The translations under genes were made by a program, and so were the position numbers. Shown here in pieces: positions 34,561 through 55,882 of a DNA stretch of 64,000 nucleotides; within the stretch, counting starts at the first letter, position 1; every line of letters begins with the position of its first letter. Source of the stretch: Cyanobium sp. PCC 7001. Lineage in GTDB: Bacteria; Cyanobacteriota; Cyanobacteriia; PCC-6307; Cyanobiaceae. The DNA lies in the NCBI RefSeq assembly GCF_000155635.1, contig NZ_DS990556.1, forward strand, positions 861,051 to 925,050, read 5' to 3'. The notes under the pieces are model-generated. The model was given only the letters and a program-made list of their open reading frames with translations, made no database searches and was not told the DNA's origin.

Positions 34561-38632
<4,072 letters not shown>

Positions 38633-39704: not shown

Positions 39705-40154
39705 TCAGGCCTCGGCAAGCCGCAGACCGATCTGCTTCGGCACCCCCTCGGGCAGGTTGCGCGAGATCGGGCAGTGGGTCATGCGCTCCTGCATCCAGGC
39801 GATCGCCTCGGCATCGACCCGGTCGCGCTCCTCGGCACTGGCTGCGGGATCGAGGCCCATGCGGAAGTCGCCCTCCACCCGCTCCACGATCCAGGTGCTG
39901 CTGGTGGTCACCTCGAAGCTGGCCTCCACCCGCTCCAGGGGAAGCTGTCGCTCGCGGGCGTTGGCCACCAGATAGGTGTGCTGACACAGCAGCAGGGAAA
40001 TCAGGTAGAGGCGGAAACCCGGCATGGTGAGGCTGAGCTGCTGGGATTCCCACTGCCCCTCCGGAGTGAGGAACTCCACCACCAGGTCACCGGTGGCGCG
40101 CTCGGGCGCGGGGTGGCTGCTGCGCAGCCGGAACTGAAACAGGCGTTGGTCCAT
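39705..40154 (-). CDS. OsmC-family protein
   Basis: 149 residues with the two Cys of OsmC/Ohr proteins, in LLLCQHTYLVAN and ERMTHCPISRNLP; the latter matches the family's CPVS/T region. It may reduce organic or lipid hydroperoxides, or persulfides, through this Cys pair. It is the last gene of the minus-strand sulfur operon; its ATG overlaps the exporter's TGA by one base (TGATG), indicating translational coupling. Placement in a persulfide operon favours a thiol/persulfide role. Confidence 0.85.
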   Translation of the reverse strand: MDQRLFQFRLRSSHPAPERATGDLVVEFLTPEGQWESQQLSLTMPGFRLYLISLLLCQHTYLVANARERQLPLERVEASFEVTTSSTWIVERVEGDFRMGLDPAASAEERDRVDAEAIAWMQERMTHCPISRNLPEGVPKQIGLRLAEA

Positions 40155-41017
40155 CAGCAGGGAGCGGGAGGAACAGAAGCGAGGGGCGTGGGCCCGGAGC
40201 GGGCCACGGTGGCAGGGGGAGCGGCGGCAGCCGTCGGGGGCTCATGGCGGCGCCAGGCCTCGGCTCCGGTGAGCAGGGCCGAGCCGATCAGCAGGGCCGA
40301 GAAGCCCTGCCGCAGCCGCCGATCGTTCAGGTGGGGGGCCAGCCACTGGCCCACGAAGGCCCCGCCGGCACCCCCCACTAGCAGGGGCAGCAGTAGTGGC
40401 ACGGCACTGGCGGGCCAGTGGCCGAGGGCCAGGAGGGCCACGGCCGCATTCACCGCGATCAGCACCAGGCTGGTGCCGCTGGCCAGGGCCATCGGCAGGC
40501 CGGCGATCAGCACCAGGGCCGGCACGATCGCAAAGCCCCCGCCCACGCCGGCGACGCCGGTGAGCAGCCCCACCACCACCCCCTGCAGGGCCAGGGCAGG
40601 CGCGCCGCCGCCGGCAGGGGGCATGGGCGTGTTGGCGTCGCGGGGCCTGCGGCGGCGGGTGAGCAGCCAGGAGGCCACCAGCGCCGCCAGCGTGAACACC
40701 CCCAGCTGCACGGCTTCCGGAATCAGGCCGGCCCTCACCAGGCTGCCGCCGATCCAGCTGCCGGCCAGGGCAGGAAACCCGAGGATCAGGGCGGGGCGCA
40801 GGGCCACCTGACGCCGGCGCAGGTAGGGCCCCACATTGCCCAGGGCCAGCAGGGCCACCACGATCAAGGAGAGCGGCACCGCCTGGCGGGTGGGCAGCCC
40901 GGCGCCGCTCACCAGCAGGGGCAGCAGCAGGATCGAACCTCCGGCCCCGAGCACCGCCAGCAGGAAGCCGATCAGGCCCCCCCCTGCCAGGAGCAGCAGG
41001 GCCGTGGCCTCGATCAC
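40154..41017 (-). CDS. TauE/SafE-type sulfite/anion exporter
   Basis: GTG start at 41017 overlapping the upstream TGA (GTGA). 287 residues with about eight membrane helices in two repeats; GGGLIGFLLAVLGAGGSILL and VGLLTGVAGVGGGFAIVPAL are the paired TauE/SafE motifs. The family exports sulfite, sulfoacetate or other organosulfur anions. Its place between a membrane rhodanese and an OsmC protein, downstream of persulfide dioxygenase, points to export of sulfite or thiosulfate made during sulfide oxidation. The last ~35 residues are Ala/Pro-rich. Confidence 0.9.
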   Translation of the reverse strand: MIEATALLLLAGGGLIGFLLAVLGAGGSILLLPLLVSGAGLPTRQAVPLSLIVVALLALGNVGPYLRRRQVALRPALILGFPALAGSWIGGSLVRAGLIPEAVQLGVFTLAALVASWLLTRRRRPRDANTPMPPAGGGAPALALQGVVVGLLTGVAGVGGGFAIVPALVLIAGLPMALASGTSLVLIAVNAAVALLALGHWPASAVPLLLPLLVGGAGGAFVGQWLAPHLNDRRLRQGFSALLIGSALLTGAEAWRRHEPPTAAAAPPATVARSGPTPLASVPPAPC

Positions 41018-41577
41018 AGGCTCACCCGGTTCCAGGGCATGGCCGCCAGCAGGCGGGCCATGCCGCAGAAGCCGCTGATGCCGGCGAACACCAGACCCGC
41101 CCCCACGAAGCCCGCCAGCCAGATCCAGCCGGGCGCCACCGTCTGGCTGAGGATCACCCCCAGGAGCACCAGGGAGCCGGCGGCGATCTGCACCTGCCGC
41201 ATCAGCGGCAGCGGCGCCCCCGCCAGCCGGCGCACGGGATAGCCGGCCCGCTGCCAGGCGGGCACGCCGCCCTCCAGGTCCATCACCGGATCGGGATGGC
41301 CCTGCTGCAGCAGCTGCCCCAACCCCTTGGAGCTGCGGTTGCCGCTGTGGCACACCAGCACCAGGGGGCCGTTCGGCAGGTCCGTGCGGCCGAGGCGGGC
41401 CAGCGGCACGTTGATGCTGCCGGCGATGTGCCCGCCGGCGTATTCCACCGGCTCACGCACATCAATCACGGTCACCGCCCGGGCGGCCAGCCGGTCGGCC
41501 AGCTGCTGGGGCGAGATCCGGGCGAGCTCGATGGGGGCATCAGAGCCGCGGTTGGTGGGGGGGGAGGTCGTGGTCAT
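41014..41577 (-). CDS. Rhodanese with C-terminal DUF2892-type membrane domain (YgaP-like)
   Basis: 187 residues. Rhodanese domain at ~15-120: ISPQQLADRLAARAVTVIDV, REPVEYAGGHIAGSINVPLA and active-site loop LVLVCHSGNRSSKGLGQLLQ with the persulfide-forming Cys. Two C-terminal membrane helices (VQIAAGSLVLLGVILSQTV, WIWLAGFVGAGLVFAGISGF) match the YgaP/DUF2892 arrangement. It transfers sulfane sulfur at the membrane face. It lies 64 bases after the dioxygenase gene and overlaps the exporter gene. Confidence 0.92.
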   Translation of the reverse strand: MTTTSPPTNRGSDAPIELARISPQQLADRLAARAVTVIDVREPVEYAGGHIAGSINVPLARLGRTDLPNGPLVLVCHSGNRSSKGLGQLLQQGHPDPVMDLEGGVPAWQRAGYPVRRLAGAPLPLMRQVQIAAGSLVLLGVILSQTVAPGWIWLAGFVGAGLVFAGISGFCGMARLLAAMPWNRVSL

Positions 41578-41641: not shown

Positions 41642-42850
41642 TCAGGCTCCGGCCGGCGGGGCGCCGGTCTCCACCGGGTAGCCCTCGTCGCGCCAGCGGC
41701 CCAGGCCGCCGCGCAGGTTGGCCACCTGCTCGCGCCCGGCCTTCATCAGCTGCTGGGTGGCCAGGGCCGAACGGCTGCCCGAATGGCACACCAGCACCAG
41801 GGGCCGGTCCTGGGGCAGCTCGGCGGCACGGGCCTCCAGCTCCGGCAGGGGCAGGAGCTGGCTGCCGGGGATGCGGCCGTCGGGGCCGTTGAATTCCTCC
41901 GGTGCCCGCACGTCCACCAGGGCCACATCGCCGCTGTGGGCCGCCACCCAGGCGGGGGAGAGTTCCGGCAGGCCGGCATAGCTGCGCACCAGCGGCGCCC
42001 AGCTGGCCTGGGGCTCCGGCTGCCGCGGCCGTCCCGAGCGCATGTTGCCGGGCAGGGCCTCGGCGATGCGGTGGGGGTGGGGCAGCTTCATGTTCTCCAT
42101 GTGCCCCACGAAGTCGCGCTCGGTGGCGCTGCCCCCCAGGCGGGCGTTGAAGGCCTTCTCCTCCGCCACGGAGGTGACGCCGCGGCCGGTGTAGTCGTGG
42201 CCGGGATAGAGCAGGCAGGTGTCCGGCAGGGTGAGGATCTGGCCGGTGATCGAGCTCCAGAGGGTGTGGGCGTTGCCCTGCTGGAAATCGCAGCGGCCGC
42301 AGCCGCGCACCAGCAGGGCATCGCCCGTGAAGGCCATCGACAGGTCGTCGAGCACGTAGGTGACGCAGCCGTTGGTGTGGCCCGGCGTGCTGCGCACCTC
42401 CAGGGAGCGGCGGCCGAAGCTCACCCGATCCCCATGGGCCAGGGGCCGGGTCACGTTCTCGGCGCCGGCGGCGGCGGCCAGGCCGATGGCACAGCCCGTG
42501 GCTTCGTGCAGCAGCCAGCTGCCGGTCACGTGGTCGGCATGGGCATGGGTGTCGAGCGAGGCCACCAGCGCGATGCCGAGTTCCTGCACCAGGGAGAGGT
42601 CGCGGCGGTGCTGCTCGTACACCGGATCGATGATCACGCCCTGCCCGCTGGCCACGTCGGCCAGCAGATAGGTGTAGGTGCCGGTGTCGGCGTCGAACAG
42701 CTGACGCAGCAGCAGCGGAGCACCTCCCGCGGCGGCGGCCAAAAGCAATGCACCGGCCGGTGCGGCAGCCGGGGTGGCCTCTGAGGCGGCAGCTGAGGCG
42801 GCAGCGGCTTGAGCGGTGGGGGCGACACCCCCGGGAGAAGAGACGGCCAT
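41642..42850 (-). CDS. Persulfide dioxygenase-rhodanese fusion (ETHE1/CstB-like)
   Basis: 402 residues from ATG 42850. After an Ala-rich ~40-residue leader comes the MBL domain: SLDTHAHADHVTGSW (HxHxDH metal site), RSTPGHTNGCVTYVLDD, MAFTGDALLVRGCGRCDFQQ, LLYPGHDYTGRGVTS. These are ETHE1-type persulfide dioxygenase motifs (one iron). The C-terminal rhodanese domain has VALVDVRAPEEFNGP and active Cys in LVLVCHSGSRSALATQQLM. MBL-then-rhodanese order matches CstB-type fusions, which turn glutathione or low-molecular-weight persulfides into sulfite/thiosulfate. First gene of the operon, divergent from arsR-like gene with a dyad 21 bases upstream. Confidence 0.93.
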   Translation of the reverse strand: MAVSSPGGVAPTAQAAAASAAASEATPAAAPAGALLLAAAAGGAPLLLRQLFDADTGTYTYLLADVASGQGVIIDPVYEQHRRDLSLVQELGIALVASLDTHAHADHVTGSWLLHEATGCAIGLAAAAGAENVTRPLAHGDRVSFGRRSLEVRSTPGHTNGCVTYVLDDLSMAFTGDALLVRGCGRCDFQQGNAHTLWSSITGQILTLPDTCLLYPGHDYTGRGVTSVAEEKAFNARLGGSATERDFVGHMENMKLPHPHRIAEALPGNMRSGRPRQPEPQASWAPLVRSYAGLPELSPAWVAAHSGDVALVDVRAPEEFNGPDGRIPGSQLLPLPELEARAAELPQDRPLVLVCHSGSRSALATQQLMKAGREQVANLRGGLGRWRDEGYPVETGAPPAGA

Positions 42851-42870
42851 GCGGCATCCCTGCAGACTGT

Positions 42871-42992: not shown

Positions 42993-43331
42993 ATGGCCGG
43001 CCCGGGCACCATGCCCTCTCTCCAGCTGCTCGAGGAGTACTGCCAGTTCTTCCGGATCCTGAGTGAACCGGCGCGGCTGCAACTGCTCTGCCAGCTCAAG
43101 CAGGGGCCGATGGATGTGGCCGCCCTGATCGAGGCCACGGGCTTTTCGCAGTCGCACATCAGCCGCCAGCTGGGCCAGCTGCAGCGGGCCGGCCTGGTGC
43201 GCTGCGAGCGCGACGGGGTGCGCACCATCTGGCACGCAGACAGCGAACTGGTGGACGACCTCTGCACCCTGGTGCAGTCCCGCCTGCGGCAGCGCCTGGA
43301 GGCCCAGCTGCAGCAGCTCGGCGCCGCCTGA
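42993..43331 (+). CDS. ArsR-family regulator, probable persulfide/sulfide sensor
   Basis: 112 residues, a standalone winged helix: FRILSEPARLQLLCQLKQG, DVAALIEATGFSQSHISRQL (recognition helix), LVRCERDGVRTIWHADS. Cys are at 17, 33, 71 and 91. C33, in LLCQL, is at the position of the reactive Cys of BigR/SqrR-type persulfide sensors and C91 lies in the C-terminal helix where their second Cys is found; a C33-C91 tetrasulfide-type switch is an inference. The metal-binding residues of classic ArsR are not evident. Divergent from the persulfide operon with two matching dyads between. Confidence 0.88.
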   Translation: MAGPGTMPSLQLLEEYCQFFRILSEPARLQLLCQLKQGPMDVAALIEATGFSQSHISRQLGQLQRAGLVRCERDGVRTIWHADSELVDDLCTLVQSRLRQRLEAQLQQLGAA

Positions 43332-48430: not shown

Positions 48431-49474
48431 TCAGCCTGAACCGTCTTCCATGGAGTCTGAGCCTTCCATGGGGCTCGATGGGGTCGATTCACGAAGAATC
48501 CCGTTCACGATGGGTCTGAGTACCTCAACCATCGAGGCCATGACAACCTCTGCAGAGAGCTCATCCACGACCGGAAACTCCTGGTCACAATAGTCAGGCC
48601 CAAAACGCTCGCCCATGTAGGCATTCTCCTGAAGAAGAAATTCCTTGCAGGAAGCGAGCTCCTTGGAAGTAAGCAAGAATTTTTGCCCGTTATTCAATAA
48701 GCTCATGATTCTGTAGTGCGACTCATTCAGCCTCCCTTCAAGAATGGCAGGATATCTTTGATTGATCAGATTCTGCATCCGCACTGCAAGATTACCTTTT
48801 GACTGATTGGCTTCTACAATCGAATAGCGATGAAGGGCTTTCACACCAACTTGGTCGAACAAGAATCCGACAGGGCCACGCCTGTGGGAGCAGGCCTTGG
48901 AAAAGGGATGAATGGTGATCGCCTCGCCAAACACAGCAAGCAGCCGCTCAAGAGTTTGACGTTGACTGGTTATCCATGCGGTATTGTTGAAATCGAAAGA
49001 TCTCCCTGCCTTGATCATTTGCTGCAGGGCCGAACAGTGAAATGAATAGGGAGATCGCACCAATGCGATCGCTGACAACCGATGCCCCTTACTGGTGAGC
49101 GCATCAGAGAATCTCCGGAGGGCTGTCGCGCTTAGCGATGAAATGTCTTCACCCGGTAAAAGCACATCGCCCGGACCATCCAGCGCCGCATCAAGAACGT
49201 TCAAATAATTGACATTAACCCGATCTAGATCCTGGATCTTCCATTTGATGTTCATATGATAGGAAGCTGGATCGTCCGAAAACGCGGAGTACAATGGAAT
49301 CGAGTGATTACGAATAGCGACGTCAGGCTTTTCGATGCATGCAAACAGGGGGTAGTTGAGTCCTTTCCTCAGCAGGCGCTTTCGATTCTTCTTGCAGGTT
49401 CGCTGAAAGGAGCTTGAGGCAGTTTTATGAAGGCCTACATGCAAGTACACGGTCTTGACCTGCATCGTATTCAA
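48431..49474 (-). CDS. Sulfotransferase-like P-loop protein
   Basis: 347 residues. The N-terminal VYLHVGLHKTASSSFQRTCK is the 5'-phosphosulfate-binding loop of PAPS-type sulfotransferases, and LSAIALVRSPYSFHCSALQQ resembles the 3'-phosphate-binding strand-helix (R.P...S). Acceptor unknown; such genes often modify surface polysaccharides or glycolipids. A+T content is clearly higher than in all neighbours, with many AAA/TTT/ATT codons, a sign of recent transfer. It stands alone. Confidence 0.75.
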   Translation of the reverse strand: MNTMQVKTVYLHVGLHKTASSSFQRTCKKNRKRLLRKGLNYPLFACIEKPDVAIRNHSIPLYSAFSDDPASYHMNIKWKIQDLDRVNVNYLNVLDAALDGPGDVLLPGEDISSLSATALRRFSDALTSKGHRLSAIALVRSPYSFHCSALQQMIKAGRSFDFNNTAWITSQRQTLERLLAVFGEAITIHPFSKACSHRRGPVGFLFDQVGVKALHRYSIVEANQSKGNLAVRMQNLINQRYPAILEGRLNESHYRIMSLLNNGQKFLLTSKELASCKEFLLQENAYMGERFGPDYCDQEFPVVDELSAEVVMASMVEVLRPIVNGILRESTPSSPMEGSDSMEDGSG

Positions 49475-49749
49475 TGAATCGCCCCGGTAAAACGTGCGGC
49501 AGGCAAAATGCCATACACCGATGACCGATGTTAACTCATTCTACGAAACCACGATCAACCCAATCACTGTCATGGATGACCTGGGTTTGGTCTTGGGTTG
49601 ACCTCTTCCCATTCGAAGCATGCTGTAGATGACGAGCAGGCCGTCTATCTGGAGGCCGTCACCGCAAGGACGATCAGCATGGCAAAGCGATCTCCCATCC
49701 CTGGGCCATCCCACGCTGCCGGGCCAAGCCCCGATTCAGGCCGTGGAAC

Positions 49750-51039
49750 TCAGTGCCTCGGCTTGTTCTGCCAGCGCATCAGCCCCAGCCGCCGGGCGAT
49801 GCCCTCGAAGGGCTTGAGGTAGGCGGCTTCATGGGGCTGGCCGGTGAGCATCCGGTTCCAGTAGATCCAGGGGAAGCCGAAGCGCTCCAGCAGCCAGGTG
49901 AACCAGCGCTCCTTCACCGGGTTCACCAGAAAGCTGCTCACCGGCTGCTGGCGGTAGTCGAACTCCAGCAGCATCACCGAGTGGTCGCTGGTGATCAGGG
50001 GGCAGGCGCTGTAGCCGTCGTAGCCGGGCTGTGGGGCGCGGCCCTCGAGCACGGCCAGCACATTGGCCGCCACCACCGGAGCCTGCAGGCGCACCGCCGC
50101 CGCCGTCTTGGCGGTGGGGAAGGAGCCCACATCGCCGATGGCGAACACATGGGGGTAGCGAGGGTGCTGGCCCGTGCGGGGATCCACCTCCACCCAGCCC
50201 TCCTCGGGGTTCACGGCCAGGGGGCTGCGGGCCACCACCTCCGGCGCTGCCATCGGTGGCACCACATGCAGCAGATCGAAGCCGATCACCTCCTCGCGCT
50301 CCGGCTGCCCGGGCTCCGCCACCCGGAAGGTGGCCATGCGCTCGGCCCCGTTCACCGCCACCAGCTCGTGGTGGTAGCGCACCTCTTCACCGCGCTCGGC
50401 GGCGATGGCCACCATCCGCTCGCTGTAGGCCGCCACGGGGAACAGGGCCGGTTGGGCGGTGCAGAAGAGCAGCCGGGAGCGCACGCCCACCCCACTGCGC
50501 GCCTTGAACCGCTGATCGGCCAGGTGCATGATCTTCTGGGGAGCCCCGCCGCATTTGATCGGCGTGGCGGGGTGGGTGAAGACCGCCGTGCCGCCCTGGA
50601 AGGTCTCCAGGCAGTGGCGGGTGTAACTGGCCAGCGGGCGGCTGTAGATGCTGGTCACGCCATGGCGGCCGAGGCAGGCGTCCAGGCCGCGCACCGCCGA
50701 CCAGTTCAGCTGGAGGCCCAGGGCCACCACCAGCACGTCGTAGCCCAGGCGCCGGCCATCGGCGAGCTCCACGGCGTCATGGTCGGGATCGAACGCCGCC
50801 ACGGCGCCATGGATCCAGCGCACCCCGGGGGGCATCACGGCGGCTTCCTGCCGCCGGGTGCTGGCGAGATCCACGAAGCCGCCGGCCACCAGCACCCAGC
50901 CCGACTGATAGTCGTGGAAGGGCGACGGTTCGATCACCGCCACCTCGAGGTCGGGGCGCAGCCGCCGCAGCCAGCTGGCCAGGGTGATGCCGCCGGTGCC
51001 GCCGCCGGCGATCAGCACCCGGGCATGGAGCTCAGCCAC
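49750..51039 (-). CDS. sqr: Sulfide:quinone oxidoreductase, type II
   Basis: 429 residues. FAD-binding VLIAGGGTGGITLASWLRRL at the start and the later FAIGDVGSFPTAKTAAAV motif. Redox-active Cys are in ATPIKCGGAPQKIMHLAD and YDGYSACPLITSDH, the arrangement of type II (mitochondrial SQRDL-like) enzymes. The C-terminal part (VKERWFTWLLERFGFPWIYW) is the membrane-binding amphipathic region. It oxidises sulfide, passing electrons to plastoquinone and sulfur to a thiol acceptor such as glutathione. Its ATG lies 8 bases inside the end of the DUF3365 heme gene, so the two are coupled; psbA lies upstream on the same strand. Confidence 0.93.
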   Translation of the reverse strand: MAELHARVLIAGGGTGGITLASWLRRLRPDLEVAVIEPSPFHDYQSGWVLVAGGFVDLASTRRQEAAVMPPGVRWIHGAVAAFDPDHDAVELADGRRLGYDVLVVALGLQLNWSAVRGLDACLGRHGVTSIYSRPLASYTRHCLETFQGGTAVFTHPATPIKCGGAPQKIMHLADQRFKARSGVGVRSRLLFCTAQPALFPVAAYSERMVAIAAERGEEVRYHHELVAVNGAERMATFRVAEPGQPEREEVIGFDLLHVVPPMAAPEVVARSPLAVNPEEGWVEVDPRTGQHPRYPHVFAIGDVGSFPTAKTAAAVRLQAPVVAANVLAVLEGRAPQPGYDGYSACPLITSDHSVMLLEFDYRQQPVSSFLVNPVKERWFTWLLERFGFPWIYWNRMLTGQPHEAAYLKPFEGIARRLGLMRWQNKPRH

Positions 51040-51682
51040 CGGTGGCGGCCTCCAGCGCCTGGGCCACCTCCGGAATGAACACGGCGTACATGCCGCGCAG
51101 GTCGCCCGGCTTGAAGTCGAAGGCCCGGTCCTGGGAATAGCGCTCCTTCACGAAGGCCGGCCGGCTGTCCTTGCTGCCGTGGCAGGCCAGGCAGCTGGGC
51201 TGCACATCGATGCGGCGGTAGTAGCTCACGCCGGCGGGCTGGCCTGCAGCGGCGGGCTGCCACAGACCCTGGATCTGGGGATGGCGGGAGAACAGATCGA
51301 TCACCTCCCGCTCCTGGGCGTTGGCGGGGGCGTGGTCGGGGTTGCGGTACTTGGTGGCCACCTGGCGGACGCTCCAGCCGTTCTCCTGGCCGATGGCGGC
51401 GGCGCGGCGGCCCACGGGCATGCACACCTCCTTCATGGTGGCCATGGTGGGCTCCTCGGTGCTGCCCTCGAGCGTGGCGGCCAGGCCGATGCGCAGCCGG
51501 TCGAGCTGCTCCATCTGGTCCACCGCCTTGGCGAGCACTTCAGGATTCACCGGGGCCTCCGGCGGCGCCGCCAGGGCGGCACAGGGAGCCACACCGATCA
51601 GGAAGGCTCCGAGCAGCATGAGGGCGGCGGAGGTGGCCATCAGGGGCCCCAGCCGCCGGATGTTGGAGAGCACAGGGTTCAT
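51032..51682 (-). CDS. DUF3365 c-type heme protein (Tll0287-like)
   Basis: 216 residues. A signal/anchor segment at ~12-38 (SAALMLLGAFLIGVAPCAAL) and a DUF3365 sensor-like domain with one c-type heme site, DVQPSCLACHGSKDSRPAFV (CxxCH). Surrounding motifs are VCMPVGRRAAAIGQENGWSV, RNPDHAPANAQEREVIDLF and PGDLRGMYAVFIPEVAQALE. The heme would be on the lumenal or periplasmic side, where it could sense or transfer electrons at low potential. It follows psbA (96-base gap containing a terminator) and overlaps sqr, so a role in sulfide or redox handling beside low-oxygen photosystem II is inferred. Confidence 0.88.
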   Translation of the reverse strand: MNPVLSNIRRLGPLMATSAALMLLGAFLIGVAPCAALAAPPEAPVNPEVLAKAVDQMEQLDRLRIGLAATLEGSTEEPTMATMKEVCMPVGRRAAAIGQENGWSVRQVATKYRNPDHAPANAQEREVIDLFSRHPQIQGLWQPAAAGQPAGVSYYRRIDVQPSCLACHGSKDSRPAFVKERYSQDRAFDFKPGDLRGMYAVFIPEVAQALEAATGG

Positions 51683-51720
51683 GGTGAGGTCAGCGAGTGG
51701 CGGTTGGGAAAAGGGAGAAA

Positions 51721-51740
51721 GGCCCGGACGGATCCGGGCC
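51721..51740 (-). terminator. Intrinsic terminator after psbA
   Basis: GGCCCGGA (51721-51728) and TCCGGGCC (51733-51740) pair perfectly with a CGGA loop. On the minus strand it is followed by TTTCTCCCTTTT. It would end most psbA transcripts, with DUF3365-sqr reached by read-through or its own promoter. Confidence 0.75.
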
Positions 51741-51778
51741 CGGGAGCGACCTTCGGCTCGGTGGGGGTCAAAGTCCCA

Positions 51779-52858
51779 CTAACCGATCGCCGGTGCCGTC
51801 AGGGGCACGGCAGCTGTTTCCACCAGGGCCAGATCCAGCGGAAAGTTGTGCACGTTGCGCTCGTGCATCGCCTCGATGCCCAGACCGGCCCGGTTGAGCA
51901 CATCGGCCCAGGTCTCCACCACCCGGCCCTGGTTGTCGAGGATCGAGTGGTTGAAGTTGAGGCCGTTGAGGTTGAAGGAGAAGCTGGCCACCGCCAGGGC
52001 GGCGAACCAGATGCCCACCACCGGCCAGGCGGCCAGGAAGAAGTGCAGGCTGCGGCTGTTGTTGAAGGAGGCGTACTGGAAGATGAGCCGGCCGAAATAG
52101 CCATGGGCGGCCACGATGTTGTAGGTCTCCTCCTCCTGGCCGAACTTGTAGCCCCGGTTCTGGCTCTCGGTTTCGGTGGTCTCCCGCACCAGGGAGCTGG
52201 TGACCAGCGATCCGTGCATGGCGGAGAACAGGGCCCCGCCGAAGACGCCGGCCACGCCGAGCATGTGGAACGGATGCATCAGCACGTTGTGCTCGGCCTG
52301 CAGCACCAGCATGAAGTTGAAGGTGCCGGAGATGCCCAGCGGCATGGCATCGGAGAACGAGCCCTGGCCGATGGCGTACACCAGCAGCACGGCGGTGGCC
52401 GCCGCCACGGGGGCCGAGTAGGCCACGGCGATCCAGGGACGCATGCCGAGCCGGTAGCTCAGCTCCCATTCCCGGCCCATCCAGCAGAAGATGCCGATCA
52501 GGAAATGGAACACGATCAGCTGGTAGGGGCCGCCGTTGTACAGCCACTCCTCGAGGCTTGTGGCCTCCCAGATGGGATAGAAGTGCAGGCCGATGGCGTT
52601 GGTGGTGGGCACCACCGCCGCGGTGATGATGTTGTTGCCGCTCAGCAGCGAGCCGGCCACGGGTTCACGGATGCCGTCGATGTCGACGGGGGGCGCGGCG
52701 ATGAAGGCAATCACGAAGCAGATCGCCGCCGCCAGCAGTGTGGGGATCATCAGCACGCCGAACCAGCCGATGTAGAGGCGGTTGTCGGTGCTGGTGATCC
52801 AGTCCTTGAAGGCTGTCCAGGGTTGGCGCCGCGGGGACGCCAGACGGGTTGTGGTCAT
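51779..52858 (-). CDS. psbA: Photosystem II D1 protein, D1' (low-oxygen) type
   Basis: 359 residues from ATG 52858; numbering aligns with standard D1. All function-defining residues are present: Tyr161 (TyrZ), Asp170, Glu189, His190, His198 and His215 (chlorophyll/iron), Ser264, His272, His332, Glu333, His337, Asp342 and Ala344. It should therefore bind Mn4Ca and split water after C-terminal processing. The three substitutions known to mark the microaerobic D1' group are all found: Ala80 (Gly in normal D1), Leu158 (Phe) and Ala286 (Thr). Glu130 is the high-light-type residue. Further departures include Ala144 for Cys, Ala162 for Pro and Ala171 for Gly. It replaces normal D1 under specific conditions, probably low oxygen or sulfide, given sqr downstream. 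Confidence 0.97.
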
Positions 52859-52934
52859 CGGATTCCCAGGAACGTGGATCGGGGAGGCCCGGCCCGGCCG
52901 CACGGGAGACGCGGGACGAGGACCCTCCGTGCAT

Positions 52935-52957
52935 AACGCTAGCGTTTTAGGCGCCTA
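52935..52957. promoter_or_regulatory. Two adjacent palindromes in the psbA promoter region
   Basis: AACGCTAGCGTT (52935-52946) is a perfect 12-bp palindrome and TAGGCGCCTA (52948-52957) a perfect 10-bp palindrome one base later. They lie between divergent psbA (start 52858) and the DUF3122-like gene (start 52974). Likely binding sites for a dimeric regulator; which one is unknown. Confidence 0.55.
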
Positions 52958-52973
52958 TCACGGAACAGCCCAT

Positions 52974-53537
52974 ATGCGCATTCGTGCTCAACTTCTGCGA
53001 CGCCTCTGGGCCCTGGCCCTGGGCGGCCTTCTCCTGCTGGGCCCGGCCCTGCCCGCCGGCGCTGTCGGGCCCTCCACCGCAGGGCCCTCCACGCCCGGTC
53101 CCACCGTGGCGTTACCCCGCAGCTGGAGGGTGCGCGACCAGAACGGACGGAGCTGGGGGCTGACCCTGCTGCCGGTGGGGGACGCCACGGACCCGGACTC
53201 CACTGCTCCCCGGCAGTGGCGCCTGCGCCTCACCGCCCGATCCGCGGGGCTCAGGCCCGACCACCAGGCACCCCTGGTGCTCGCCGATGGGCAGGAGCAG
53301 ACGTGGAGCCTGGCCAACAGCAGCGGTGAGCTGGTGCCCGAGGCCACCCAACCCTGGCCCGCCGGCGCCGCCCAGTTCAGGGGTGAACTCCTGCAGCCGG
53401 CACCGCGGGACGGCTGGCCGCTGGAACTGCGCATCCCGCTGGATCCGGGGGATGGGCCGCCCCTGGATCCCGCCCGGGTGACTCTGGGGCCGGAACCGGC
53501 GGCCGTGCTCCAGCAGCTCAGCCGCAGCACGCCCTGA
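52974..53537 (+). CDS. Exported DUF3122-like protein
   Basis: 187 residues from ATG 52974. Signal peptide 1-28 (ALALGGLLLLGPALPAGA). The mature part has WRVRDQNGRSWGLTLLPVG, LRLTARSAGLRPDHQAPLVL, EQTWSLANSSGELVPEATQ and a closing RVTLGPEPAAVLQQL, which I recognise as the cyanobacterial DUF3122 pattern. Lumenal or periplasmic, function unknown. Shares a promoter region with psbA but reads the other way. Confidence 0.75.
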   Translation: MRIRAQLLRRLWALALGGLLLLGPALPAGAVGPSTAGPSTPGPTVALPRSWRVRDQNGRSWGLTLLPVGDATDPDSTAPRQWRLRLTARSAGLRPDHQAPLVLADGQEQTWSLANSSGELVPEATQPWPAGAAQFRGELLQPAPRDGWPLELRIPLDPGDGPPLDPARVTLGPEPAAVLQQLSRSTP

Positions 53538-53572
53538 CACCGATCCGTTGGCGTTGGTTCAATGGCCCTGGT

Positions 53573-54532
53573 TTGCGGATCGCCGCCATCGCCGGACCCA
53601 GCTCCTGGGTGCTGCTCGCCCTGGGCACCGCCGCCGGTGAAACCGTGCGCGACCTGGCTCTGCGGGCGGTGCTGCGCCACTCGGGCTGGAGCACCCTGAG
53701 GGTGATCGGCACCAGCAGCGCGCTGGCGGCCCTGCTTCTCGTGCTGCCCGTGCTGCTGGCGGGCGGCCCGCCGGTGCAGTGGCAGGCCTTCGTGGCGGCC
53801 CTGCTGCTGGGGGGGAGCCTCAATGCCCTGGCCTTCTGGGGCTACGGCCGTGCCCTGGCCCTCGAAGATCTCAGCCTGGTGCTGCCCCTGATCAACCTCT
53901 CGCCACTGGTGTTGCTGCTGGCGGGCTGGTGGGTGCTCGGGGAGCAGCCCAGCCCCACGGCTGCGCTGGGGGTTGGGCTGCTGGTGCTGGGGGCCCTGCT
54001 GCTCGGGCGGGCCGGGCAGCGTCCCGCTGGCATCGGCCTGCACCGGCTGTGGACCAGCGCCGGCTGCCGCTGGATGCTGCTGGTGGCCCTGCTGTGGGGG
54101 ATCGGCGCCAGCGTCGACAAGCTCGGTGTGCGGGCCGGGGGCAGCCTGCTCTGGGTGATGGCGCTGCAAGCCACGATCGGCGGCACGCTGCTGGGCCTCT
54201 CCCTGCCGCTCGCCGCCGGGGCGGCGCCACCGGCCAGGTCTTCGGCCTCGTCTTCGGCCTGGAGAGCGGCCGAGACCCCGGGCTGGCCTGGGGCCCTGAG
54301 CCTGGGGCTCCTGCTGGCCGGCTTCGCCGGCGCGGTCGGCACCGTGTGGCAGATGCAGGCGATCAGCCAGACGGCAGTGGTGCACGTGATTGCCCTCAAG
54401 CGGCTCAGCACCCTGCTGGGCAGCGGCGCGGGGGTGCTGGCCCTGGGCGAACCCGAAGGGCGGCGGCGACTAGTGGCCGCCGCCCTGATGCTGGCCGGCG
54501 CCGCCACCGTGCTCTGGGGTGCCCTCGGCTGA
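53573..54532 (+). CDS. EamA/DMT-family transporter
   Basis: 319 residues from a TTG at 53573; no better in-frame start precedes it. Ten hydrophobic segments in two EamA repeats, e.g. NALAFWGYGRALALEDLSLV, LINLSPLVLLLAGWWVLGEQ and the matching second-half MQAISQTAVVHVIALKRLST with LALGEPEGRRRLVAAALMLA. DMT proteins export metabolites or amino acids; substrate unknown. The last 63 bases overlap the P450 gene on the opposite strand. Confidence 0.85.
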   Translation: MRIAAIAGPSSWVLLALGTAAGETVRDLALRAVLRHSGWSTLRVIGTSSALAALLLVLPVLLAGGPPVQWQAFVAALLLGGSLNALAFWGYGRALALEDLSLVLPLINLSPLVLLLAGWWVLGEQPSPTAALGVGLLVLGALLLGRAGQRPAGIGLHRLWTSAGCRWMLLVALLWGIGASVDKLGVRAGGSLLWVMALQATIGGTLLGLSLPLAAGAAPPARSSASSSAWRAAETPGWPGALSLGLLLAGFAGAVGTVWQMQAISQTAVVHVIALKRLSTLLGSGAGVLALGEPEGRRRLVAAALMLAGAATVLWGALG

Positions 54533-55882
54533 GCGCCTGCGCGCCCGCACCAGCAGACCATCGCGGGGCATGGGGCTGGGGATCACCGCGAGGCCGAGGT
54601 CCTGGTTAGGCAGCAAGTCGAGCTCCACATCGCGCAGCAGCCCGATGGTGAGCAGGCGGATCTCCAGTTCAGCCAGGGCCTTGCCCAGGCACACCCGTTC
54701 GCCGCCGCCGAAGGGCCAGAGGGGGGAGGTCCAGCTGCCATCGCAGTGGCGCTCGGGCCTGAACGCCTCCGGCGCGCTCTCCTGGCCGCAGGCTCCGTAA
54801 CGGTTGGAAGACGCCAGCGCCACCTGGATCACCCGGCCGGCCGGCACCGCCACCCCATCCAGCACGAGCGGCTGGCGGGTGCGGCGGAAGAATCCACCCA
54901 CCGGGGGCACCAGCCGCATCACCTCCCGCACCACTGCATCGAGCCTCACGTCGAGCCGCGGAGCGCCCACGGCCCTGGTGCCGCTGCCGCCGTCCGGGGG
55001 CCAGGGGAGCGTGTCGATCTCCTCCAGCAGCCAGACCCGCGGGGCCGGGTGCTGCAGCAGCGCCAGCATCAGACAACTCAACGAGGACGCGGTGGTTTCG
55101 TAGCCCGCGAACAGCAGCAACAGCAGCTGTTCCACCAGATCGGGATCGCTGAGGGGCACACCGGCCTCATCCACGCCTCCCGCCAGAAGATCCAGGCCGC
55201 CGCTGACGGAGCAGCCAGGTTCCCGGGCCCTGCGCAGCACCTGCTCCAGACGCCCGAGCAGGCGCTCCCGTGCCGCCAGCGCCCTGGCGAAGGGGCTGGA
55301 GGGAAGGGCCACGGGGAAGGAGAACAGCCCCCGGGTCCAGATCTCGAAATCCTGGAAGAGGGCCTCGCGATCGTCCCCCTCCAGCCCGAGCACCACGCCG
55401 GCGATCACCGCAAAAGCGAAGCGCCGCAGCCGGGCCGCCAGGGGCACCGGGCCGCCCGACACCAGCAGCTCATCACGCAGGTCATCCACCTGGGCCTTGA
55501 TCGCCGGGGTGTAGCGCTGCAGGGCGGCCGCGGAGAAGAGCTGGCCCACCACCCGGCGGCGAGCCCGATGATCGTGACCGTTGCGGTTGGCGAGGGAGCG
55601 CGGGCCCAGCAGCTGCTTCACGCTGGCGGGCCACCAGCCCTCCAGGGCTTCCGGCTGGGCCAAGAGATCCTCCAGGGCGCGCGAGCCGCGGATGAACACC
55701 AGCGGCTGGCCGAGCAGCACGGTCTCGAACACGTTGCCGAACCGATCGAAGCGACGCTCGGCGAAGCCGGGATCGCGGAAGAACGCCAGGGCTTCGAGCA
55801 CGCCGCTGAGGGCGCCGGTGCGGGGCAGCGGCCGCGGGGCGGAAGCCGGCCACTGAGCAAGCGGCTTGAGGCCGTCGGGCAC
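54470..55882 (-). CDS. Cytochrome P450
   Basis: 470 residues from GTG 55882. I-helix oxygen-binding motif LLLFAGYETTASSLSCLM, K-helix ExxR in VVREVMRLVPPVGGFFRRTR, and heme-Cys loop WPFGGGERVCLGKALAELE are intact. Overall it resembles the CYP120-type branch of cyanobacteria, whose known member acts on retinoids. No membrane anchor, so soluble. The last ~25 residues (RRRSAEGTPEHGGG onward) extend beyond the family's end and lie antisense to the DMT gene. Two bases after an NblA-like gene, so probably one transcript. Confidence 0.92.
   Translation of the reverse strand: MPDGLKPLAQWPASAPRPLPRTGALSGVLEALAFFRDPGFAERRFDRFGNVFETVLLGQPLVFIRGSRALEDLLAQPEALEGWWPASVKQLLGPRSLANRNGHDHRARRRVVGQLFSAAALQRYTPAIKAQVDDLRDELLVSGGPVPLAARLRRFAFAVIAGVVLGLEGDDREALFQDFEIWTRGLFSFPVALPSSPFARALAARERLLGRLEQVLRRAREPGCSVSGGLDLLAGGVDEAGVPLSDPDLVEQLLLLLFAGYETTASSLSCLMLALLQHPAPRVWLLEEIDTLPWPPDGGSGTRAVGAPRLDVRLDAVVREVMRLVPPVGGFFRRTRQPLVLDGVAVPAGRVIQVALASSNRYGACGQESAPEAFRPERHCDGSWTSPLWPFGGGERVCLGKALAELEIRLLTIGLLRDVELDLLPNQDLGLAVIPSPMPRDGLLVRARRRSAEGTPEHGGGAGQHQGGGH

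Follow-up and report, generated by a model that had tools for sequence, protein, structure and literature searches.

A D1'-type psbA gene, a Tll0287-like heme protein gene and a type II-like sulfide:quinone oxidoreductase gene recur as neighbours in Cyanobium and its relatives

Results

Three genes that follow one another on the minus strand were analysed in a 64,000-nucleotide stretch of Cyanobium sp. PCC 7001 (contig NZ_DS990556.1, positions 861,051 to 925,050; hereafter the window, whose own positions are used below). They are a psbA gene for a D1'-type D1 protein of photosystem II (PSII), a gene for a single-heme protein orthologous to Tll0287 (PF11845, or DUF3365), and sqr, which encodes a type II-like sulfide:quinone oxidoreductase (SQR). 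The same neighbours recur in many genomes, which shows that the grouping is beyond chance. The reading that we favour, and hold to be probable from the sequences, is that the locus serves acclimation to sulfide and low oxygen, with SQR and D1' acting in parallel and the heme protein responding to redox state or sulfide as a partner of D1'-PSII in the lumen. The order psbA, heme gene, sqr was confirmed in the 2.83-Mb host genome (G000; Table 1), with a gap of 96 bases between psbA and the heme gene. A first-pass annotation had named the same three proteins and an 8-base overlap of the heme and sqr open reading frames (ORFs) on a shared strand; profile, Protein Data Bank (PDB) and residue matches bear out the identities, and the ORF coordinates agree with the overlap (51032-51039).

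Identity of the three proteins

The psbA product matched the Photo_RC profile (5e-90). At positions 80, 158 and 286, which we take to be markers of D1' (the microaerobic, group 3 form), it carries A80, L158 and A286, the same residues as T. elongatus PsbA2 (7yq2), whereas PsbA3 (7yq7) has G, F and T. A144 is also present. The genome holds four D1-type genes, namely the window copy, two with identical scores (83% identical to the window copy) and one at 80%, and two further matches at 34% are presumably D2. Two of the other copies were typed and carry G, F and T at the three positions, and the match score of the third other copy is identical to that of one of the two typed copies. All seven Mn ligands listed in an excerpt of PMC8002359 (D170, E189, H332, E333, H337, D342 and A344) are kept in the window D1, which suggests that it should be able to oxidise water.

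The heme protein matched PF11845 at 1.7e-27 (97 bits against a cut-off of 24.1), the sole family found in it, and its gene is the only PF11845 match at E<=0.001 in the genome. Residues 39-212 matched T. elongatus Tll0287 (5b82; E 1.9e-61), the only PDB match at E<=0.01, with 97 of the 170 aligned residues identical. As in that ortholog, there is a heme motif, here a single CxxCH (SCLACH; C164, C167 and H168), and Cys87 aligns with a cysteine of 5b82. Cys87 is the presumed second heme ligand, in view of the His/Cys ligation named in the title of Motomura 2017. The N-terminus resembles a signal peptide. CxxCH was present in 117 of 117 orthologs and Cys87 in 117 of the 118 with a residue at that position, counts that omit eight named loci, partly duplicates. 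The lone ortholog with Tyr for Cys87 is L164 (G324), a locus with no D1, SQR or DUF3122 gene within 5 kb.

The sqr product matched Pyr_redox_2 (9.6e-10). Because its match to human SQOR (1.4e-94) is far stronger than that to Aquifex SQR (only 2.2e-15), we class it as a sulfide:quinone oxidoreductase that is type II-like. Two of its cysteines, Cys163 and Cys346, line up with human SQOR cysteines, which we take to be the catalytic ones, and both are kept in all 36 listed SQR sequences (35 distinct). The genome has a second type II SQR gene about 12 kb past the window end (C1:937416-938627; L290:12417-13625, + strand), whose product is about 49-51% identical. Position 193 is Ala in this second SQR and in L136-L140, and a further cysteine in SQRs near the heme gene. 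In a midpoint-rooted tree, family SQRs near the heme gene form separate clades (supports 1.0, 0.97 and a weak 0.24), which also hold copies not near the heme gene; merged duplicate sequences make the linked and other labels of this tree unreliable, and locus identities were used instead.

Recurrence in the family

We surveyed 201 genomes of the window's family (taken as the same 201 for the heme, D1' and SQR searches), with cut-offs of E<=1e-70 for a strong heme protein match, E<=1e-210 for D1'-like psbA and E<=1e-60 for SQR. The heme protein was matched at E<=1e-3 in 36 genomes, 30 of them strongly, while D1'-like psbA was found in 34 and SQR in 62. D1' was present in 24 of the 30 strongly heme-positive genomes compared to 10 of the other 171 (Fisher p ~1e-17), and SQR in 29 of the 30 compared to 33 of the 171 (p ~1e-16); these p values are not true probabilities, since the surveyed genomes are related. 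All 34 family D1 copies that were typed carry A80, L158 and A286, and one of them (L172) has Tyr for His332. The D1 tree unites the 34 copies in a single clade (support 0.91), nested in a larger one (1.0) whose members have these three residues and which also takes in such copies from three other families.

Gene order was compared at 33 family heme loci in 31 genomes, some of them cut by contig ends; SQR, ArsR and DUF3122 matches below 60 bits and D1 matches below 150 bits (e.g. the L160 fragments) were dropped. A D1 gene lay less than 1 kb upstream of the heme gene on the same strand at 23 loci; D1 was within 5 kb at 25 loci, as was a DUF3122 gene at 25. SQR was found within 5 kb at 14 loci, and at five (L141, L142, L152, L167 and L170) it was on the same strand and no more than 1 kb away. 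None of the three partners was near the heme gene at 3 loci. The first-pass annotation had proposed a co-occurrence search for DUF3365, D1' psbA and sqr within 5 kb; both D1 and SQR were found within that distance at 11 of the 33 heme loci, relatives of this strain included, so the trio is not strain-specific. The tight D1-heme-SQR form is present in three genomes (G000, G437 and G457). G427 has heme-SQR without D1. In a Cyanobium metagenome-assembled genome (MAG) contig (L044) the heme-SQR pair lies at the edge, so that any D1 gene would fall beyond the contig. L175, L177 and L293 have D1' and SQR as neighbours but no heme gene beside them. The L173 locus (G521) appears to be decaying, with psbA partly matched beside the heme gene and a TAG within the heme match.

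Recurrence outside the family

The heme protein was matched at E<=1e-30 in 89 of 388 genomes of the class, and the 86 ortholog loci outside the family (82 genomes) were compared. At 50 of these 86 loci a type I SQR gene was on the same strand and no more than 1 kb away, and the SQR pairing spans 25 of 45 genera and 10 of 20 families. One of these SQRs, when compared with the PDB, matched Aquifex SQR at 2.9e-89 and human SQOR at only ~6e-15. SQRs of different origin thus lie beside the same heme gene, and we regard this as the best indication that they are functionally linked. ArsR was within 1 kb at 26 loci, DUF3122 was equally close and on the same strand at 49, and 13 loci had none of SQR, D1 and DUF3122 within 5 kb.

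Linked D1 proteins outside the family were typed where nearly full length (0.2 to 7.4 kb from the heme gene; partial ones such as L256 and L258 were left out). D1' residues were found in L242, L252, L276, L280 and L285. In L214, L224, L226, L229, L263, L267 and L269 the linked D1 is of the 'rogue' kind without Mn ligands, with type I SQR and the heme gene in the same neighbourhood.

Across L204-L289 the order type I sqr - (arsR) - tll0287 ortholog - (DUF3122) is recurrent, and this includes genomes that we label Thermosynechococcus-like (the L216 heme protein is identical to 5b82 at 155 of 170 residues). In the latter (L216, L223 and L228) the heme gene sits beside type I SQR and not beside psbA, whereas in the window its neighbours are D1' and type II SQR. 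PetC (Rieske), DUF4079, DUF302, rhodanese and NrdG-like genes are near this order in some loci. Clustering of neighbours within 6.5 kb of the loci, with antisense shadow ORFs ignored, gave Rieske PetC, DUF4079 and DUF302 groups, whose representatives were checked with Pfam, and, by appearance only, rhodanese, persulfide dioxygenase, an Acr3-like transporter and an NrdG-like protein.

Control signals

A 12-bp palindrome, AACGCTAGCGTT, precedes the D1' gene, and it is the only match to AACGNTANCGTT in the genome. A looser form, AACGNTANYGTT, with at most one mismatch, occurs in 26 of 35 family D1' upstream regions (two of which, L042 and L048, are duplicates or near-duplicates of others) compared to 0.1% of shuffles; as this form was drawn from the same upstream regions, the count is descriptive, and the single genomic site is the independent part. 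Across 47 regions (778,652 bases) the looser pattern gave 19 distinct sites, 16 of them before a D1' gene. The palindrome may overlap the -10 box and could thus be a promoter feature or an operator; D1' and the divergent DUF3122-like gene are probably controlled from the shared intergenic region that holds it. No sigma-70-type site was called when 49400-53600 was scanned for promoters.

Translation of the heme and sqr genes is probably coupled. The psbA-heme spacer holds an inverted repeat followed by a T-rich tract (Table 1), and 21 of 22 family spacers begin with a common short motif after the psbA stop. Three example spacer hairpins fold better than shuffles (z -2.1 to -4.1), as does the short motif (z -2.0), in stretches picked by eye; the whole 99-base spacer folds no better than shuffles (z -0.56). 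In a terminator scan of 49400-53600, none was called in the spacer, and the sole terminator-like site lies inside psbA. Two other psbA copies of the genome are followed by a different hairpin. Because of the terminator-like hairpins in the spacer, the same orientation of the three genes does not amount to one transcript. A single operon was set aside as a statement of fact on account of these hairpins, the terminator itself being only a candidate.

Neighbouring genes

The gene divergent from psbA is likely homologous to the one found after tll0287 in other cyanobacteria. The assignment to DUF3122 is likely and not certain, because the Pfam match is below the cut-off (E 0.0049), the BLAST match is weak (30% identity, 1.8e-5, in a small search), and the profile included 52974-53537 itself. 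A cytochrome P450 gene lies at 54470-55882 (PF00067, 8.7e-37), beyond the DUF3122-like and EamA genes. Downstream of sqr, a 347-residue ORF (48431-49474) has no Pfam match at E<=0.001 and looks by eye to be poorer in GC than its surroundings.

A set of ArsR, persulfide dioxygenase, rhodanese and TauE genes lies at 40.2-43.3 kb. Operons of the BigR/SqrR type combine persulfide dioxygenase, rhodanese and TauE, and the window set has the same parts; it differs in lying 6-10 kb from sqr, possibly as a separate unit. A catalase-peroxidase-like ORF (36449-38632, by appearance) adjoins the set.

Table 1. Features of the psbA-heme-sqr locus and the nearby sulfur gene set (window positions).
Feature	Position	Strand	Remarks
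psbA, D1'-type D1	51779..52858	-	ATG at 52858, stop ends 51779
Tll0287 ortholog heme gene (PF11845/DUF3365)	51032..51682	-	ATG at 51682, stop ends 51032
sqr, type II-like sulfide:quinone oxidoreductase	49750..51039	-	GTG at 51039, stop ends 49750
12-bp palindrome AACGCTAGCGTT before D1' gene	52935..52946	.	between DUF3122-like gene and psbA; candidate operator
8-bp perfect inverted repeat (9 pairs folded), then T-rich tract	51721..51740	-	psbA-heme spacer; candidate intrinsic terminator or processing site
DUF3122-like gene, divergent from psbA	52974..53537	+	signal-peptide-like N-terminus; sub-threshold Pfam and weak BLAST matches
ArsR-family regulator, divergent from adjoining sulfur genes	42993..43331	+	HTH_5 2.6e-11
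Persulfide dioxygenase-like metallo-beta-lactamase fused to rhodanese	41642..42856	-	start uncertain
Rhodanese with YgaP-like membrane domain	41014..41577	-	
TauE/SafE sulfite exporter	40154..41017	-	1.2e-37; start uncertain

Discussion

From gene identities, residues, linkage and co-occurrence, all of which are read directly in the sequences, we infer that the genes of the locus would be co-regulated, that the heme protein would be located in the lumen and bind PSII in Cyanobium, and that the set would respond to sulfide. Under sulfide and low oxygen, SQR at the thylakoid membrane would oxidise sulfide to persulfide and pass the electrons to plastoquinone, which would both clear a poison of PSII and feed photosystem I; the persulfide would go to the nearby persulfide dioxygenase, rhodanese and TauE set. 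D1' would replace the standard D1, and PSII could then work with a reduced plastoquinone pool and little oxygen. The Tll0287 ortholog would be exported to the lumen and attach to D1'-PSII, where, by means of its Cys/His-ligated heme, it would be a redox- or sulfide-responsive subunit and not a bulk electron carrier. Several published observations bear on this proposal. Tll0287 is reported as associated with PsbA2-PSII, that is D1'-PSII, in Thermosynechococcus (Boussac 2013, as cited in an excerpt of PMC4582080), and a response of Tll0287 to factors tied to sulfide metabolism is attributed to Motomura 2017 in an excerpt of the review PMC8396549. Two further observations lend indirect support: microaerobic-type psbA dominated the psbA transcripts of a low-oxygen mat (PMC8651085, excerpt), and in Synechococcus PCC 7002 the transcripts of psbA and petC rose with polysulfide, the psbA copy being left unspecified in the excerpt of PMC12466478. 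A 2026 preprint describes the PF11845 family as heme-Cache domains (sCache_heme) with redox-related stand-alone members, and its main text does not contain the word sulfide (PMC12889525).

Several results weigh against this reading. The counts are not independent, since the genomes are related. D1' also occurs in ten family genomes that lack a strong heme match; of these, G495 has a heme fragment beside D1' where its contig ends (locus L296 of the gene-order sample), and in G511 D1' itself is near a contig end. SQR is absent within 5 kb at 19 of the 33 family loci and D1 at 8, and outside the family D1 lies within 5 kb at only 11 of the 86 loci and SQR is missing within that distance at 33 (some cut by contig ends). 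The linked D1 of L261 (G250) is standard; it is one of several near-identical copies and comes immediately after the heme gene. The D1 tree places T. elongatus PsbA2 among its own paralogs and not in the window's clade, and three of the 19 looser-palindrome sites are elsewhere than before D1' (L148, L150 and L169). D1' also does not seem to be required for sulfide-tolerant life, because the MAG of an Antarctic Phormidium that tolerates sulfide apparently encodes standard D1 alone (PMC8002359, excerpt). The first-pass annotation had suggested that the trio would be a compact cassette for photosynthesis in sulfidic, low-oxygen water. The tie to sulfide and low oxygen is supported, and the operon sense is weakened: a GC-rich stem with a T-rich tail occurs in 19 of 22 family psbA-heme spacers (under permissive criteria and with no shuffle control), and psbA may thus not share a transcript with the heme and sqr genes.

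The genes may instead share a trigger without physical coupling, a reading that we regard as possible but rather unlikely. Each would be of use under sulfide or low oxygen and their grouping would serve co-regulation only, the heme protein having no part in PSII and working alone as a redox sensor or sulfur-stress protein. The heme gene-SQR link is wider than the heme gene-D1 link, because orthologs outside the family mostly sit with SQR, ArsR or DUF3122 and not with psbA, and this pattern, like the sulfide response attributed to Motomura 2017, would fit a shared trigger. The reported association of Tll0287 with PsbA2-PSII argues for a PSII role, and within the family D1-heme is the commoner close pair (23 of 33 loci within 1 kb, against 5 of 33 for SQR). 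Adjacency merely by descent, with no joint function, is scarcely credible. The relatedness of the genomes and the loss of members from some loci, such as L173 with its partly matched psbA, would agree with it, but type I SQR and separate clades of type II SQR recur beside the same heme gene, and membership persists while the arrangement varies (partner upstream, downstream or divergent).

The remaining alternatives concern what the heme protein does. It could be a sulfur enzyme similar to TsdA or SoxA, whose Cys-ligated c-type heme reacts with sulfide, persulfide or thiosulfate in the lumen; we give this little credence. Cys87 and CxxCH are nearly invariant, the lone ortholog without Cys87 (L164) has none of the partner genes nearby, the heme gene is coupled to SQRs of two types, and the Cys-ligated c-type heme of TsdA forms an S-thiosulfonate adduct in catalysis (PMC4423706, excerpt). 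Neither TsdA nor SoxA was among the PDB matches, however, and a stand-alone member from P. putida has stable Cys/His ligation with limited ligand exchange (PMC12889525, excerpt). A sulfide-adapted PSII is likewise doubtful: the Tll0287 ortholog would be a lumenal subunit of D1'-PSII whose Cys/His heme captures sulfide or persulfide near the Mn cluster, protecting the cluster and perhaps letting reduced sulfur feed electrons to PSII, while SQR drains sulfide into plastoquinone and the palindrome serves as the on-switch. The first-pass suggestion of electron transfer by the heme protein between SQR and PSII found no support in our analysis, and such a shuttle between SQR or plastoquinone and PSII is very improbable. 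A single-heme protein is encoded between the two genes, and stand-alone members of the family are described in the preprint excerpt (PMC12889525) as redox-related, in electron transfer or redox sensing. The signal-peptide-like N-terminus suggests a lumenal location, whereas SQR reduces plastoquinone in the membrane. Moreover, the midpoint potential of Tll0287 is reportedly low, about -0.25 V, which would be too low to accept electrons from plastoquinol.

Parts of this picture are already in print, namely the proximity of psbA and sqr, the association of Tll0287 with D1'-PSII and the link between Tll0287 and sulfide (PMC5061849, PMC4582080 and PMC8396549, excerpts). According to an excerpt of Grim and Dick 2016 (PMC5061849), psbA of groups 2 and 3 lies near sqr of types I, II or VI in cyanobacteria, 14 psbA genes are within five genes of sqr, and arsR is near 27 sqr genes. 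The window likewise has a low-oxygen psbA near sqr and differs in that the heme gene lies between them; the paper does not mention Cyanobium, and the words Tll0287, DUF3365 and DUF3122 were not found in it. In Thermostichales and Gloeomargaritales, sqr is near ArsR, TauE or petC2, with rhodanese in the genomes, and, unlike in the window, no psbA or Tll0287 member of these clusters is described in the excerpt of PMC11304991. In the literature searched, seen in part, we found no paper on D1', Tll0287 and SQR together, nor on DUF3122 with them, and papers beyond it may describe them; its titles and abstract openings showed no discussion of the small cyanobacteria of the Cyanobium group as sulfide users.

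A 2014 review called the purpose of D1'-PSII unclear (PMC4582080, excerpt). Linking sulfide oxidation with D1' and with the heme protein reported as its partner would point to a specific trigger, sulfide and not only low oxygen, and may bear on how oxygenic photosynthesis persisted in sulfidic water. Taken together, the recurrent grouping in Cyanobium and its relatives suggests that they share a kit for photosynthesis where water is sulfidic and low in oxygen.

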